A stretch of DNA of 37,295 nucleotides, taken from Rhodospirillales bacterium. Its GTDB lineage: Bacteria > Vulcanimicrobiota > Vulcanimicrobiia > Vulcanimicrobiales > Vulcanimicrobiaceae. Below the pieces are notes generated by a model. That model worked only from the letters and a program-made list of their open reading frames with translations, did no database searches and had not been told where the DNA came from. Of the stretch, positions 1,812 to 9,581 are shown in pieces. The DNA lies in contig CAJCIN010000237.1 of NCBI GenBank assembly GCA_903970385.1, forward strand, positions 1 through 37,295. Reading direction: 5' to 3'. How positions within the stretch are numbered: the stretch's first letter is position 1; the number at the start of each line of letters is the position of its first letter. The position numbers and the translations under genes are program-made.

Positions 1812-2510
1812 ATGGTGGCCTCGGGCCCGAAACGCATCCTGATCGTCGACGACGAGTCGGCCATCCTCCAGACCCTCCGCTTCAATCTCGAACGCAACGG
1901 TTACACCGTGGCGACGGCCGGCGACGGCCGGACGGCGATCACGCTCGCCGCGAGCGAACGCCCGGATCTCATCATCATGGACATCATGTTGCCGGTGCTC
2001 GACGGCATCGAGGCGTGTAAGGAGATCCGCAAGACGAGCGGCGTTCCGATCATCATGCTGACCGCGCGCGATCAGGAGATCGACAAAGTCCTCGCGCTCG
2101 AACTCGGCGCCGACGATTACGTGACGAAACCGTTCTCTCTGCACGAGTTTCTCGCGCGCGTCAAAGCGCGCTTGCGCCGCCAGCCGTCCGGCGAAGGCAC
2201 CGTGCGCAGCGACGCGATCTCGGTTTCCGACATCGTGCTCGATCCGTCGCGCCAGTCGCTGATCGTGCGGGGCCGTACCGTCTCGCTCGCGCCGAAGGAG
2301 TTCAGCCTCCTCCACGTGCTCATGGAGAATCGCGGCCGCGTCGTGACGCGACAGACGCTGCTCGACAAAGTGTGGGGCTACGATTTCGAGGGCGAACACC
2401 AGACGATCAGCGTCCACGTTCGCTGGCTGCGCGAGAAGATCGAGATCGATCCGAACAATCCGCTCCACATCATCACGGTCCGCAGCCGCGGCTATATGTT
2501 CAAAGAATAA
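1812..2510 (+). CDS. phoB: Phosphate-regulon response regulator, OmpR/PhoB family
   Basis: DNA-binding response regulator that, when phosphorylated by PhoR, would bind Pho boxes and activate genes for phosphate uptake. The receiver domain (about residues 7-120) has the acidic pair Asp13-Asp14, phosphoacceptor Asp57 in IIMDIMLPVLDG, Thr84 in IIMLTARDQ and Lys106 in DDYVTKPF. The C-terminal winged helix (about 135-232) has LAPKEFSLLHVLMEN and GYDFEGEHQTISVHVRWL, ending RGYMFKE. Start ATG 1812 is supported by AAGGA at 1801-1805, six bases upstream. phoR follows after 30 nt. The name PhoB rather than another OmpR member rests on its neighbours ppx, phoR and pst; the four-unit Pho box at 4957-4997 is the probable local target. 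Confidence 0.9.
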   Translation: MVASGPKRILIVDDESAILQTLRFNLERNGYTVATAGDGRTAITLAASERPDLIIMDIMLPVLDGIEACKEIRKTSGVPIIMLTARDQEIDKVLALELGADDYVTKPFSLHEFLARVKARLRRQPSGEGTVRSDAISVSDIVLDPSRQSLIVRGRTVSLAPKEFSLLHVLMENRGRVVTRQTLLDKVWGYDFEGEHQTISVHVRWLREKIEIDPNNPLHIITVRSRGYMFKE

Positions 2511-2540: not shown

Positions 2541-3695
2541 ATGCTCCTCGAATGGGTCGCGGGTGCGTGTGCCGTCGCGCTCGGGTTCGTGCTCGGTCGC
2601 GCGACGCGAGGAAACGCGCTCGACGGGGTCGTCGCGGACGACGGCTCGGCGGAGATCGCCTCCGACTCACGCTTCGAGCAATTACTCCGCTCGTTGACCG
2701 TCGGAATCGTGACGGTGGATGGGCGCGGCCGCCTCGATTCGATCAATGCAGCCGCGGGCGCCATCTTCGACGTCGGGAACCGGCCCGTTCTCGGTCGCGC
2801 GATCATCGAGGTCGTGCCGTCGTTCGATCTCGACCGGCGCGTGCGGGAAGCGCTCGACGGCCAACCGTCACGCGGCCGGATCTCGCTCAACCGCCCGGCC
2901 GGCACGCGCGTCCTCACCGTCGCGACGCTGCCGATCGACGGTTCGCGCGGGGCGCTGGTGATCGCGAGCGACGAGACGCGATTGCACGAACTGGAACAGA
3001 CGCGCCGCGATTTCATTTCGAGCGTCTCGCACGAACTGCGCACGCCGCTCTCGTCGATCAACTTGATGATCGAGACGATTCTCGACAACGACGGCGACAT
3101 CGAAGCGATCGACATCTTCCTGCCGCGCATCAAACGCGAGGTCGACCGGATGGTGCAGCTGGTGGAAGATCTGCTCGAGCTCGCCCGTGCCGAATCCGGT
3201 CAGCTGCGACTGCGCCGCGAGCTCGTCGATCTCGCGAGCGTCGGAACGACGATCCTGAGAACGTTCGAGCCGCGCGCGGCGCAACTCGGCGTCGCGCTGC
3301 GTTTCGAAGGCGAGGAAGTCCGGATCAACGGCGACGCGGACCGTCTCGCGCAGATCTTCGTGAACCTCATCGACAACGCGCTACGGCATACCCCCTCCGG
3401 CGGCGAGGTCGTCGCCCGGGTGCTCTCGCACGACGGCAGTGCGACGCTCGTCGTGCGCGACAGCGGCATAGGCATCCCGTACAACGATCTCCCGCACGTC
3501 TTCGAACGGTTCTACGTGGTGGACCGCAGTCGCGCGCGAGAGTCGACCGGTACCGGGCTCGGTCTCTCGATCGTCAAGCAGATCGTCGAGGCGCACGGCG
3601 GCACCGTCACGGCTGACTCGGAGTTCGGTCGCGGCGCGACGGTAACGTGCGTGTTTCCGGCGGCCCGGCCGCTGCCCGCAGGCGAGACCACCTGA
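2541..3695 (+). CDS. phoR: Phosphate-regulon sensor histidine kinase PhoR
   Basis: Membrane-bound kinase partner of PhoB (384 aa). One N-terminal membrane helix (about residues 3-20, LLEWVAGACAVALGFVLG) is followed directly by a PAS-like cytoplasmic domain (about 40-140), the dimerisation/phosphoacceptor helix SSVSHELRTPLSS with His164, and the catalytic ATPase domain with N box FVNLIDNALRHTP, G1 RDSGIGIP, F box HVFERFY and G2 TGLGLSIVKQIVEAHGG. It has no extracytoplasmic sensor region, as expected for PhoR kinases that read phosphate status through the Pst transporter. Its last 89 bases overlap the convergent acyltransferase at 3607-4833. phoU, the usual adaptor between Pst and PhoR, is not in this window. 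Confidence 0.9.
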   Translation: MLLEWVAGACAVALGFVLGRATRGNALDGVVADDGSAEIASDSRFEQLLRSLTVGIVTVDGRGRLDSINAAAGAIFDVGNRPVLGRAIIEVVPSFDLDRRVREALDGQPSRGRISLNRPAGTRVLTVATLPIDGSRGALVIASDETRLHELEQTRRDFISSVSHELRTPLSSINLMIETILDNDGDIEAIDIFLPRIKREVDRMVQLVEDLLELARAESGQLRLRRELVDLASVGTTILRTFEPRAAQLGVALRFEGEEVRINGDADRLAQIFVNLIDNALRHTPSGGEVVARVLSHDGSATLVVRDSGIGIPYNDLPHVFERFYVVDRSRARESTGTGLGLSIVKQIVEAHGGTVTADSEFGRGATVTCVFPAARPLPAGETT

Positions 3696-4833
3696 ATGCG
3701 AACGTTTGCGGCTTGATCGTGCCGAGCAACGGACGTTCGATGAAGTACGTCACCGCGGTCGATACCGCGAACGTGATCGCCCAACCCGAGGCGATGTAGA
3801 CCGTCTTCCAATGCGGATCGTCGTGGGGATTCGGCGTCGCCGCGCGCGGCACGCCGTGTTGCCACATCCAGATCATCAACAGCGTGTGCCAGAGATAGAC
3901 GTTGTACGAAACGACGCCGCAGAAGACGAAGAACGGATTCGCGAGGACGACGCGCCACGCGCGTAGCGCGAGACACGAGCACGCGATGAGACCGCCCGCC
4001 GCGATCGCGACGAACGTGCGGCCGATGAGATCCCAGCGCTGGGGGCCGAGGGCGACGTATTGCACGGTGTCGGCCGACTGCATGAGCCGGAACGCCCCGT
4101 ACGCACAGAGCGCGGCTCCGAGCGTGAAGACGGCGGCCGGAACGCGCAGTCGACGAACGCGCACGTACGCGACGCAGTACGCGGCGAACATGCCGCACGC
4201 GAAGAGGTCGAGATATGCCGGCAGTTCGCGGACGATCGTCTCGTCGCCGAGGCAGCACGTCGAAACCGCGTGGCGGTAGACGAACGCGATCGTGCAGAGC
4301 GCGACGGCCGTTGCGAAGGGCGACGTGCGGAACGCGCGCGCGACGAGCGGGAAGATCAGGTAGAACTGCATCTCGATCGCGAGGCTCCAGAAGACGGAGT
4401 TCGCCTTGCCGAGCCCGGTCGGAAACGCGTTCTGCACGAACAGCGCGTGCGTGAGTGCGTTGACGGCCAGATCCTTGCGGTCGAGGTATGCCGCGGACAC
4501 GGCGAGCGTCGCGATGAGCGCGAGCGCGTACGACGGGGCGATCTTGACGAACCGGCGCCGCGCGAAGTCGCGAAGGCCTTCGACGCGGACGTCCGCACCG
4601 AGCGCACGCAGCGCGTGCGGGAAGCCGAGCACGAAGCCGCTGATGGCGAAGAAGAGGTCGACGCCGAGGTAGCCGTCGCGCGCGTACACGTCCACGGGCC
4701 ACTGGATGCCGAACGCCGCGAACTCGGGCGTCAACCACGAGAACAGGTACGTGTGGTACACGAGGACGAGCAGAATCGCGATGCCCCGCAGGCCGTCGAC
4801 CGCCTCCGTGCCGCTGCGGACGTGTTCGCGCAC
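3607..4833 (-). CDS. Acyltransferase 3 family membrane protein (OafA/YrhL type)
   Basis: Integral membrane O-acyltransferase that would move acyl groups, often acetyl, onto cell-surface polysaccharide, peptidoglycan or lipid sugars; the acceptor cannot be predicted. The 408 residues open with DGLRGIAILLVLVYHTYLF, carrying the invariant Arg16 and catalytic-type His27. GVDLFFAISGFVLGFP and SVFWSLAIEMQFYLIFPL follow, all family hallmarks, with about ten hydrophobic segments. The C-terminal SGNH domain of larger relatives is absent. The only start in frame is GTG at 4833, without a clear ribosome site. It lies antisense between phoR and pstS and overlaps the phoR 3' end by 89 bp, so the two messages are complementary over that stretch. 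A role in phosphate starvation is possible but unsupported. Confidence 0.85.
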   Translation of the reverse strand: MREHVRSGTEAVDGLRGIAILLVLVYHTYLFSWLTPEFAAFGIQWPVDVYARDGYLGVDLFFAISGFVLGFPHALRALGADVRVEGLRDFARRRFVKIAPSYALALIATLAVSAAYLDRKDLAVNALTHALFVQNAFPTGLGKANSVFWSLAIEMQFYLIFPLVARAFRTSPFATAVALCTIAFVYRHAVSTCCLGDETIVRELPAYLDLFACGMFAAYCVAYVRVRRLRVPAAVFTLGAALCAYGAFRLMQSADTVQYVALGPQRWDLIGRTFVAIAAGGLIACSCLALRAWRVVLANPFFVFCGVVSYNVYLWHTLLMIWMWQHGVPRAATPNPHDDPHWKTVYIASGWAITFAVSTAVTYFIERPLLGTIKPQTFAFRWSRLRAAAGPPETRTLPSRRDRTPSQP

Positions 4834-4956
4834 GCTCGAAGCTTCGGCGCCGGGCGCTCGAGCCCGTCTTAAGACGATGATAACGCAAGGATAAGGTCGA
4901 GCGCGGATACTGTTCGACGTCGCCGGACGTTTCGGTTCGAGCGATGTCCGACGAAG
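4834..4956. other. Divergent intergenic region, acyltransferase side
   Basis: This is the acyltransferase-proximal half of the 234-nt gap between that gene and pstS. It contains a perfect 10-bp palindrome GTCTTAAGAC at 4865-4874 and an AT-richer stretch around 4875-4893 that may hold the acyltransferase promoter. I could not place a convincing -35/-10 pair. Confidence 0.35.
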
Positions 4957-4997
4957 GTTAACGGCTCCTTAATGCGCCGTTAAACCGGTCTTATGCT
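4957..4997 (+). promoter_or_regulatory. Pho box: four direct repeats at exact 11-bp spacing upstream of pstS
   Basis: Four TTAA-cored units begin exactly 11 bp apart: GTTAACGG at 4957, CTTAATGC at 4968, GTTAAACC at 4979 and CTTATGCT at 4990. PhoB-family regulators bind direct repeats with an 11-bp period. The core resembles the cyanobacterial 8-bp Pho unit with 3-bp spacers (CTTAACCT type) more than the E. coli CTGTCAT unit. The fourth, weakest unit contains TATGCT (4992-4997) and could double as the -10 element, leaving three true operators. The array ends 70 nt before the pstS ATG, a sensible distance for a phosphate-activated promoter of pstSCAB. PhoB and PhoR are encoded 1.3-2.5 kb upstream. 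Confidence 0.85.
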
Positions 4998-5067
4998 GCG
5001 GCTGCGACCATCGAGGCCGCGTGCATGTCGTCGACGCGAATTGCAACGCACATCAGGAGGTTCTCCC

Positions 5068-5886
5068 ATGTCCAGGTCCGCACGCCTTGCGGCCATCGCA
5101 CTCGCCGCCGCGATCGCGCCCTCGGCCGCATTCGCCGATACGTCGATATCGGCCGCCGGCTCGACCGCGCTGCAACCGCTCGTTCAAGCTGCGGCGGACG
5201 AGTATCAGCAGAAAAACTCCGACGTCAAAATCAGCGTGACGGGCGGCGGTTCGCGCACCGGTTTGTCGCTCGTGTCCTCGAAGGCCGTCGATCTCGGCGA
5301 TTCCGACATCCTCGCTCCCGACGGCACGAACGGCCTCGTCGATCACAAGGTCGCCGTGATCGGCTTCTCGGTCGTCGTCAATCCGGCAGCGGGTGTCAAG
5401 GGTCTCAGTAAAAAGCAAGTCCAGGATATCTTCACGCTCAAGGTCACCAACTGGAAAGACGTGGGCGGTAAGGACCAGCAGATCACCGTCATCAACCGCC
5501 CGGCGAGCTCGGGGACGCGTGCGGTCTTCATGAAGACGCTCATGGGTTCGATCGACACGCTCCCGCCGACGCTGACCGAGGACGCAACCGGCACGGTCGT
5601 GCAGAAGGTCGCGCAGACGGCTGGCGCCGTTTCGTACGCCTCGTTCTCCGGGACGCACAACGCGTCGGGCGTGAGCGAACTCGCGATCGACGGCGCTGCC
5701 GCGACGGAAGACAACGTGATGACCGGAAAATATCCGTTCTGGTCGTACGAGCACATCTATACGAACGGTCCGCCCTCGAAGGACATCGCGAAGTTCATCG
5801 CGTTCCTGCAAGAAGACACCGCGGTGTTTAAAAAGACGGGCTACATCCAGATCCGCGACATGAAAGTCACGGAAAACAACCGCTAG
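5068..5886 (+). CDS. pstS: Periplasmic phosphate-binding protein PstS
   Basis: Captures phosphate outside the membrane and delivers it to PstCA. The frame opens earlier at 4993, but that ATG lies inside the Pho box. The true start is ATG 5068, preceded at 5055-5060 by a perfect AGGAGG with 7-nt spacing. This gives 272 residues with a classical signal peptide, MSRSARLAAIALAAAIAPSA then AFA, cleaved before DTSIS. Mature motifs include ISAAGSTALQPLV, VTGGGSRTGLSLV, DLGDSDI and INRPASSGTRAVFMKT, the phosphate-contact loops of the PBP-like family. No lipobox cysteine is seen, so it is probably a free soluble protein or held by the transporter. First gene of pstSCAB; pstC begins 40 nt downstream. 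Confidence 0.95.
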   Translation: MSRSARLAAIALAAAIAPSAAFADTSISAAGSTALQPLVQAAADEYQQKNSDVKISVTGGGSRTGLSLVSSKAVDLGDSDILAPDGTNGLVDHKVAVIGFSVVVNPAAGVKGLSKKQVQDIFTLKVTNWKDVGGKDQQITVINRPASSGTRAVFMKTLMGSIDTLPPTLTEDATGTVVQKVAQTAGAVSYASFSGTHNASGVSELAIDGAAATEDNVMTGKYPFWSYEHIYTNGPPSKDIAKFIAFLQEDTAVFKKTGYIQIRDMKVTENNR

Positions 5887-5926: not shown

Positions 5927-6811
5927 ATGGTAGGGGTCCGCGCCAGCAAGGCACATCGTGACGAGGGCATCGCGCTCGTCGTCCTCATGTCGTGCAGCGC
6001 GCTCTTCGTGATCGCGATCGCGCTCATTCTCGGCTTCCTCGCCTTCAACGGCACGCGTCTCTTTTGGGGCGATCACTATTCGCCGCTGAAGTTCTTGTTC
6101 GGTACGGACTGGGACGGGTTCGGCGGACACTACGGGGCGGCCACGTTCATCGCGGGTTCGCTCGTCGCGACCGGCATGGCGATCGCGATCGGCGGACCGC
6201 TCGGCGTCGCGATCGGCGTCTTTTTCTCGGAGCTCGCGCCGAAGCGTGTCGCGACCGCGTTCAAGCCCGCGATCGAGGTGCTCGTCGGCATCCCGTCCGT
6301 CGTCTACGGCTGGCTCGGGTTGACGTTGCTCGTGCCCGCGATCGCGACGGTCTTCCATCTCCCCGACGGCGACGGTCTCCTCGCCGCCGGCATCGTGCTC
6401 TCCATCATGATCCTGCCGACGGTGATCTCGCTCTCGGAAGACGCGCTGCGCGTCGTCCCGAACTCCCTCCGCGAGGGATCGGCGGCGCTCGGCGCCACGC
6501 GCTGGGAAACGATCACGAAAGTCTTGCTGCCGTCGGCCTCGAGCGGCATCGCGGTCGCGGTGATCCTCGGCGTCGCGCGCGCGATCGGCGAGACGCTCGC
6601 CGTGCAACTCGTGCTCGGCAATGCGGCGATCTTGCCGACGTCGCTGCTGAAACCGGCGGCCGCGCTCACGTCCGAGATCGTCATGGACATGGGCGACGCG
6701 CCGGACGGTAGCGGTTTCAAGCACGCGCTCTTCGCGATGGCGTTTCTGCTGCTGCTGATCTCGATGGGGTTGATCCTCTTGATCCGCCTCGCGCTCCGGC
6801 GCCGGACGTAG
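5927..6811 (+). CDS. pstC: Phosphate ABC transporter permease PstC
   Basis: One of two membrane subunits forming the phosphate channel. The 294 residues begin with a hydrophobic helix ([19 protein letters not shown]) and contain about six membrane segments. The permease signature region that docks to the ATPase is [20 protein letters not shown] followed by [15 protein letters not shown]. The [14 protein letters not shown] loop matches the PstC family pattern of FLFGTDWNP type. Start ATG 5927 has AAGGGGA 12 nt upstream, slightly long spacing. Its TAG overlaps the GTG of pstA by one base (TAGTG), so the two are translationally coupled. Confidence 0.94.
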
Positions 6812-7734
6812 TGGCGCAAGCGGTGATCGCACAGCCCGCCGTCGCGCGTCTGCGCGGCAGCAACGCGCGTTCGCGCCGCATCGTCGATCGGATCGCGACG
6901 GCCGCGCTCTGGGGTGCGTCGAGCCTCGTCGTGCTGCTGTTGCTGCTGTTCATCGGCTTCGAATTCTACCGCGGCGCGAGTTCGATCTCGTGGCAGTTCC
7001 TCACGGGGTCGCCCACCGCCGGCACGGCGGGCGGCGGCATCGGGCCGCTCATCTTCAACTCGTTCTACGTGTTGATCCTCACGCTCGCGTTCACGGTGCC
7101 GATCTCCGTCTGCGCGGGCATGTACTTGCAAGAGTACTCGGCCGGCGGCCGCTTCAAAGCGATCGTGCAGTTCAGCGCGGAGTCGCTCGCGACGGTCCCC
7201 TCGATCGTGATGGGACTCTTCGGTCTGCTCGTCTTCGTCTCTGCGTTGCACTGGCATTTCACGGCGCTCGGCGGCGCGCTCACGTTGACGCTGCTGAATC
7301 TGCCGGCGATGATGCGCGTGACGCAAGAAGCGCTCGCGGGCGTTCCGGGCACGTATCGCGAGGCATCGATGGCCTGCGGTGCGACGAAGTGGCAGACCGT
7401 TCTCAAGGTCATCTTGCCGAGCGCGATCGGTCCGCTCACGACGGGCGTCGTGCTCGTCTCCGGCCGCATCTTCGGCGAGACGGCCGCGCTGATCTACACG
7501 GCCGGCGCGTCCGTTTCGTACGGTCGCAGCGCGTACGACGTCAATCCGTTCCACACGGCGGAAACGCTCGCCGTCGGACTGTACCAAGTCCATCGCGAGG
7601 CGCTCGTCCCCGACGTCGATCGGATCGCCAACGGCTCGGCGCTCGTCCTGCTCGTCATGGTGCTCGTGTTCAACGTCGTCGCGCGCGTCGTGGGGCGCGC
7701 GCTAACCCTGCGCTTCACCGGGAAGGCTCGATGA
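6811..7734 (+). CDS. pstA: Phosphate ABC transporter permease PstA
   Basis: Second membrane subunit of the phosphate importer (307 aa). It starts at GTG 6811, sharing one base with the pstC stop. The first helix is at about residues 33-53 ([16 protein letters not shown]), followed by [34 protein letters not shown], and the ATPase-coupling loop [19 protein letters not shown] then [16 protein letters not shown]. All are typical of PstA. The TGA at 7732-7734 overlaps the pstB start in ATGA, indicating coupled translation of channel and ATPase. Confidence 0.94.
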
Positions 7735-8519
7735 TCCAATCGCAACCGGCCGCCGCGCCCGCGCTCGCCGACAAGATGAAGATCGAGAATCTCGACATCT
7801 TCTACGGCACGTTCCAGGCGATGAAGCGCGCGAACCTGAGCGTGCCGGATCGTCACGTCATGGCGCTGATCGGCCCGTCCGGCTGCGGCAAGTCGACGTT
7901 TCTCCGGGCGCTCAACCGGATGCACGACCTCACGCCCGGCGCGCGCGTCGAGGGCAAGGTGACGCTCGACGGCGTCGACATCTACGCGCCGTCGATCGAT
8001 CCCGTCACGGTGCGGCATCGCATCGGCATGGTCTTTCAGCGGCCGAACCCGTTTCCGAAGTCGATCTTCGAAAACGTCGTCTACGGCGCGAAGATTCACG
8101 GCGAGAAAAATCCGAAGCGTCTCGCCGAAATCGCCGAGAAGAGCTTACGCGCCGCCGCGCTGTGGGACGAAGTCAAAGACCGGCTCAGCCGCTCCGCGCT
8201 CGATCTCTCGGGCGGTCAGCAGCAGCGCTTGTGCATCGCGCGCGTGCTCGCGGTCGAACCCGAAGTGATCCTCATGGACGAGCCGGCGTCGGCGCTCGAC
8301 CCGATCGCGACGTCGAAGATCGAAGATCTCATCGGCGAGCTCAAAAGAGATTACACGGTGATCATCGTGACGCACTCGATGCAGCAAGCGGCGCGCATCT
8401 CCGACTTCACGTCGTTCTTCTTGCTGGGCGAGCTGATCGAGGTCGGCACGACGTCAGATATTTTCACGCGGCCTCGCGACAAGCGCACGGAAGACTACAT
8501 CACCGGCCGCTACGGGTAG
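7731..8519 (+). CDS. pstB: Phosphate ABC transporter ATP-binding protein PstB
   Basis: Cytoplasmic ATPase that powers PstSCA. The 262-residue protein starts at ATG 7731, overlapping the pstA stop by 4 nt; longer in-frame extensions lie inside pstA and are not real. It shows Walker [10 protein letters not shown] (residues 48-56), [10 protein letters not shown] specific to PstB, Q-loop [18 protein letters not shown], signature [16 protein letters not shown], Walker [14 protein letters not shown] and H-loop VTHSMQQA. It ends [12 protein letters not shown], the canonical PstB C-terminus. The expected next gene phoU is missing: a secreted hypothetical follows 45 nt later. Confidence 0.96.
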
Positions 8520-9176: not shown

Positions 9177-9581
9177 ATGTCCAATATCGTTCAGACCGCC
9201 GATAAAGCCGGCACGTTCAAGACGCTTCTCGCCGCGGTCAATGCCGCCGACCTCGCGACGACCCTCGAAGGCAAAGGACCGTTTACGGTCTTCGCTCCGA
9301 ACGATGAGGCGTTCGCCAAATTGCCCGCGGGCACGGTCGATGCTTTGCTCGCCGACCTTCCGAAGCTCACGAAGATTCTCACGTACCACGTGGTGTCGGG
9401 AGACGTCCGCGCCGCCGACGTTGCGAAACTGCACAACGTCAAAACGGTCGAAGGCGGCGACCTTCACATCCACGCGAACGGCGGCGTAAAGATCAACGAA
9501 TCGAACGTCATCGGAGCCGATGTCGTCGCCGATAACGGCGTCATTCACATCATCGACGCCGTGCTGCTACCCTCGAACTAG
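9177..9581 (+). CDS. Fasciclin (FAS1) domain protein
   Basis: A single FAS1 domain filling all 134 residues, with the family H1 motif [15 protein letters not shown], central [10 protein letters not shown] and H2 motif [13 protein letters not shown] at the C-terminus. FAS1 domains are adhesion or ligand-binding modules, usually exported; here no signal peptide or membrane anchor is visible and the domain starts at residue 3. Start ATG 9177 follows GGGGA closely. An inverted repeat AGTCGA/TCGACT (6-nt loop) lies about 40 nt upstream. It converges with the Crp/Fnr regulator and is separated from it by a strong hairpin. Function is unknown beyond the fold. Confidence 0.88.

Follow-up and report, generated by a model that had tools for sequence, protein, structure and literature searches.

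The Bacillus subtilis PhoP box (TTAACA-type) combines a TTAA-rich core with 11-bp repeats. In cyanobacteria, triple repeats with a TTAA core are the established PhoB/SphR site (PMC11126600, PMC1906773), and mutational EMSA showed that Synechocystis PhoB requires all three TTAA repeats (PMC11126600). The kind of site analyzed here is therefore already known, and what is new is the phylum. The literature that we searched contained no description of a Pho operator for Eremiobacterota, nor of the geometry rule or the target list reported below. The host is an uncultured soil bacterium of the Eremiobacterota with a 3.26-Mb metagenome-assembled genome, and among named relatives a Candidatus Eremiobacterota genome is the nearest to it at pstS (71% identity).

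The window, i.e., the whole stretch of 37,295 nucleotides that we analyzed, carries in order ppx/gppA (116-1714), a phoB-like response regulator gene (1812-2510, plus strand), a phoR-like PAS histidine kinase gene recognized by profile match (2541-3695, plus strand), a minus-strand acyltransferase gene (3607-4833), the array, and pstS, pstC, pstA and pstB. The four pst genes lie on the plus strand and score above the cut-offs of their models: pstS, encoding a phosphate-binding protein of 272 aa (5068-5886, TIGR02136), with the ribosome-binding site AGGAGG at 5055-5060 (plus strand); pstC (5927-6811, TIGR02138); pstA (6811-7734, TIGR00974); and pstB (7731-8519, TIGR00972). An earlier note on this DNA had placed the array downstream of phoB-phoR, which holds, but the acyltransferase gene sits between phoR and the array. 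phoU is encoded at a distance from the window's pst operon (G000:C31:4194-4748, L179). A fasciclin-domain protein (9177-9581) is encoded 3' of pstB, and at another locus (L058) a fasciclin-like gene is divergent from a phosphoesterase gene.

Upstream of pstS, positions 4957-4997 read GTTAACGGCTCCTTAATGCGCCGTTAAACCGGTCTTATGCT, with the array written out as GTTAAC-GGCTC-CTTAAT-GCGCC-GTTAAA-CCGGT-CTTATG. We predicted four PhoB units on the plus strand, namely TTAA at 4958-4961, 4969-4972 and 4980-4983, each conserved in relatives, and a degenerate, promoter-proximal TTAT at 4991-4994, which is also found in G007, G020, G015 and G022. All steps are exactly 11 bp, and 73 nt separate unit 4 from the pstS start codon ATG (5068). 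The array thus has the direct-repeat units in an 11-bp step, at least two in number, that mark a PHO box. The exact 11-bp phase claimed earlier is borne out by the sequence and goes far beyond chance; the unit starts given then (4957, 4968, 4979 and 4990) are right in spacing, but they include the preceding G or C, and the cores begin 1 nt later. Given the base composition, one would expect the full four-unit array 6e-8 times per window and 5e-6 times per 3.26-Mb genome. Since TTAA is short and self-complementary, the three matches in the window to three phased TTAA (up to 2 mismatches), against 0.02 expected, are by themselves a modest argument. Across the whole genome of the host, a search for the pattern that allowed up to 1 mismatch gave 4 places versus 0 in the reversed control. 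Matches with 2 mismatches (10 places versus 5 in the control), and likewise those to a longer pattern with 2 mismatches (7 versus 16), were excluded from the evidence.

Lack of conservation upstream of pstS in relatives had been named as an observation that would refute the reading, and it was not borne out. In G016, G007, G020 and G022, the 300 bases 5' of pstS are mostly dissimilar save for the array and its position, so that the array is kept despite differing flanks. Most of these four genomes show TTAA-TTAA-TTAA-TTAT; the fourth unit of G016 is ATAG, and the first step of G022 is 10 bp. G015 also has the array before pstS and G014 has a degenerate form, while pstS copies without an array were seen in several of the relatives examined. 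With the gaps left variable (4 to 10), 63 places were found in 37 family genomes, arrays from related genomes being non-independent samples; 19 of them had steps of 11+11 and 17 of 10+11, and no other combination exceeded 4. Judged from these counts, the 11+11 or 10+11 spacing, present in 36 of the 63 variable-gap arrays, is under selection. In 10+11 arrays, which precede pstS, pstB and pstC, the 10-bp step is the promoter-distal one; examples before pstB or pstC, with the 11-bp step proximal, are L071, L072, L077-L082, L074, L075 and L080. PhoP of M. tuberculosis binds about 20-fold more weakly when the step is shortened (PMC4832192); tolerance of a distal 10-bp step therefore sets this lineage slightly apart.

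We then considered the promoter. When arrays were oriented by their downstream gene, 23 of 37 had TANNNT at an offset of 15/16 or 26/27 nt, counted from the first T of the last exact TTAA; shuffled flanks gave a mean of 1.7 and a maximum of 8 (2000 trials). After correction of orientation, 33 of 36 arrays had.A...T at these offsets. All 16 arrays with the longer offset (26/27) carried another TTA-type unit, the fourth, one 11-bp step beyond, and those with the shorter offset mostly did not (Fisher 2e-5, for a classification made after inspection of the data). Because the longer offset tracks the fourth unit, the -10 element begins 15-16 nt from where the true last unit starts. The same offsets, judged by eye, were seen in G056. 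By this rule, the -10 of the window is the hexamer GACCAT (5006-5011) with a TG upstream, i.e., a candidate extended -10, TG-n-GACCAT, at 5003-5011 on the plus strand, proposed from its position, with the hexamer 15 nt from where unit 4 begins, and from its conservation. GACCAT is a weak match to TATAAT. Transcription would start near 5018. In terms of sequence, then, the units stand at a fixed distance from a -10 and would take the place of a -35, as at PHO boxes.

Alternatively, PhoB might bind three units only, with the fourth (TTATGCT) being the promoter -10, TATGCT. TATnnT is indeed kept at the fourth unit in the host genome, G007, G020 and G022. However, arrays with a fourth TTA unit have a separate.A...T 15-16 nt further on, just as three-unit arrays do, and in E. 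coli pstS four units are followed by a -10. We therefore regard the three-unit arrangement as unlikely, and the array is treated below as four units followed by a -10.

A second phased array, TTAA-N7-ATAA-N7-ATAA, which the earlier note did not contain, is present at 4869-4894 on the plus strand. It is followed by a candidate -10, GATACT (4906-4911, plus strand), which begins 15 nt from the first base of the array's last unit. In the window, this array and GATACT may form a second pstS promoter. We also tried the second array as a divergent operator of the acyltransferase gene and rejected it: no -10 fits on the minus strand, whereas GATACT fits on the plus strand, and in G007 and G020 the conserved array precedes a small ORF. 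This ORF represents a small, hitherto undescribed protein, about 50-66 aa long with the core LAFLEEYCRGMTLRDVREWY, that is conserved in many family members and encoded between phoR and the pst array at at least 13 loci (L004:1261-1422, L006, L048, L049, L057, L060, L081, L082, L087, L098, L143, L146 and L184). The one copy scanned had no Pfam match. TTAA-N7-ATAA-N7-ATAA lies 5' of the small gene in G007, G020 and G030; the gene was not found in the window, which retains its array at 4869-4894.

The array had also been proposed as a pattern for finding the Pho regulon, and scans of the host and related genomes did return phosphate genes. Exact TTAA-N7-TTAA-N7-TTAA occurred in 24 places versus 1 in the reversed control (55 genomes of the class; counted from the match table). 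Eighteen of 19 inspected loci were 5' of pst, pit, porin-like, TonB-receptor or phosphoesterase genes: pstS (5), pstB (1), Pit (1), outer-membrane proteins of about 480 aa (8), TonB-dependent receptors (2) and a phosphoesterase (1); the remaining locus gave no clear target. Genes were assigned by eye at many loci, and porin-family membership was judged by eye for 7 of the 8 outer-membrane proteins. Pfam searches with representatives returned OprD, PHO4, Phosphoesterase and Plug/CarboxypepD_reg. Like PHO boxes, the units are thus found upstream of phosphate-acquisition genes in several genomes. In the host genome, a perfect array lies 5' of the Pit gene, and few genes make up the regulon when stringency is high (pstS, pit and one weaker TonB receptor gene); the host's OprD-like homologue (38%) has no evident array. 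Two TTAA units plus the -10 gave 68 matches versus 9 in the reversed control (101 genomes), and with this excess of about 7 to 1, Pho regulons can be drawn from incomplete genomes. The AT-rich phylum members G055, G057 and G059, where control matches were equally or nearly as frequent, were left out.

OprD-like porins of about 480-495 aa are encoded behind TTAA arrays at L048, L049, L051, L052, L053, L056, L057, L060, L111-L113 and L116-L118, and are candidate phosphate porins. Several other gene types were also seen. In genus g36 (L099-L110), an array with TAGACT lies 5' of a gene whose product carries a copper amine oxidase N-terminal (stalk) domain. YncE-like beta-propeller genes occur near TTAA-type arrays (L090, L091 and L152), and the one in the host genome is divergent from a TonB receptor gene. 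In G056, which belongs to another class, 20 exact TTAA arrays versus 0 in the control (L169-L178) precede genes for small secreted proteins and a flagellin-like gene.

The presumed binder of the array is the phoB-like regulator, so assigned from its Pfam domains, its recognition helix and the orthologues that adjoin pst arrays. It has the receiver and winged helix of a PhoB-like OmpR-family protein and is encoded beside a PAS histidine kinase and pst genes. Almost all genomes of the class have one orthologue (61-90% identity), which is well set apart from the next regulator (about 45%) and in most cases encoded at the pst locus. The recognition helix reads QT[IV]SVH[VI]RWLR in all 30 orthologues read; in an alignment with E. 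coli PhoB, the thymine-contacting Thr194 and Val197 are kept and Arg201 is replaced by Trp, residue 205 of the window regulator. In E. coli PhoB, Arg201 hydrogen-bonds guanine (PMC3973317). Trp at this position is also found in more distant members of the class and in one G056 regulator. The replacement is consistent with guanine-free TTAA units, though a causal relation would be our inference. The window regulator scores 226.7 bits with the PhoB model TIGR02154 (cut-off 296.2) and 258 with the YycF model (cut-off 340); being under both NCBIfam equivalog cut-offs, it is called 'PhoB' from context.

The higher score with the YycF model, albeit below the cut-off, and the many outer-membrane proteins among the targets would suit another OmpR-family regulator, e.g., a WalR/YycF- or MtrA-like one, that binds the array and controls envelope and transport genes without being a phosphate regulator. 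Against this stand pstS, pstC, pstB, pit and a phosphoesterase gene among the targets, and the regulator orthologue encoded beside arrays at the pst locus, and we consider control by such a regulator very improbable. That the array is a chance run of A+T-rich repeats within a G+C-rich intergenic region is hardly conceivable: short, self-complementary cores would favor it, but the window, genome, class-wide, spacing and -10 statistics contradict it, and conservation in relatives had already refuted it.

Taken together, the array is very probably a double PHO box of pstSCAB, with four PhoB units in tandem, acting within the mechanism proposed here. Conservation before pstS, the other phosphate genes, the selected spacing, the fixed -10 distance and the presence of phoB-phoR at the locus in most relatives strongly support the Pho-box reading. 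Under low phosphate, the PhoR-like kinase would phosphorylate the PhoB-like regulator encoded 2.4 kb upstream of the array, which would bind the 11-bp-spaced TTAA units head to tail and recruit sigma-70-type RNA polymerase to the extended -10, whose distance from the start of the last unit is 15 nt; the box would thereby substitute for a -35. In the host genome the same code would also drive pit, and in relatives it would drive pit together with genes for OprD-like porins, TonB receptors and a phosphoesterase. The array is most likely the switch that turns on high-affinity phosphate uptake, presumably upon phosphate limitation. As a tentative extension, which we hold to be possible rather than probable, the helix with Trp for Arg201 would therefore read the G-less TTAA in Eremiobacterota, and the protein of about 55 aa at the locus, which in some genomes has a PHO array to itself, would take part in Pho control.

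The new elements are the code of this lineage, the geometry of its promoters, a candidate regulon and, at the locus, a small conserved protein. With them, a widespread phylum of oligotrophic soils that is almost uncultured gains a Pho operator and a promoter grammar that can be used in searches; OprD-like porins and TonB receptors emerge from the target list as likely outer-membrane parts of phosphate scavenging; and the recognition helix and the unit, having changed as a pair, offer a testable case of the evolution of the PhoB code.

Compared with known systems, the array resembles the cyanobacterial SphR/PhoB box (CTTAACCT repeats) in its TTAA core, its three tandem repeats, its 11-bp step (8 bp + 3 bp) and its position before pstS; porin genes carry sites in cyanobacteria too, as in this lineage (PMC1906773, PMC11126600). 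The TTAA core is present in at least three repeats, but the flanks C....CCT are not: C precedes TTAA in about 64% of units, and CCT after it is not conserved. Unlike the cyanobacterial box, the sites here thus have no conserved CCT flank, and they lie in a high-GC genome, with four units at pstS and a frequent 10-bp first step. The description of the unit as cyanobacteria-like therefore fits its CTTAA core and the repeated 11-bp layout, but not the CCT tail of CTTAACCT. Whether it is nearer to the cyanobacterial than to the enterobacterial type depends on the feature: the core is, while the four-unit layout is equally close to E. coli pstS. There, the sequence has units at -105, -94, -83 and -72 and TATTTT at -56, i.e., a double PHO box with the same 11-bp steps and a -10 at 16 nt, versus 15 nt here. 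The E. coli unit TGTCA contains guanine and is paired with Arg201, whereas the TTAA unit here lacks guanine and is paired with Trp. The Streptomyces PhoP box (GTTCACC) likewise consists of 11-nt direct repeats but differs in its core (PMC4415409).
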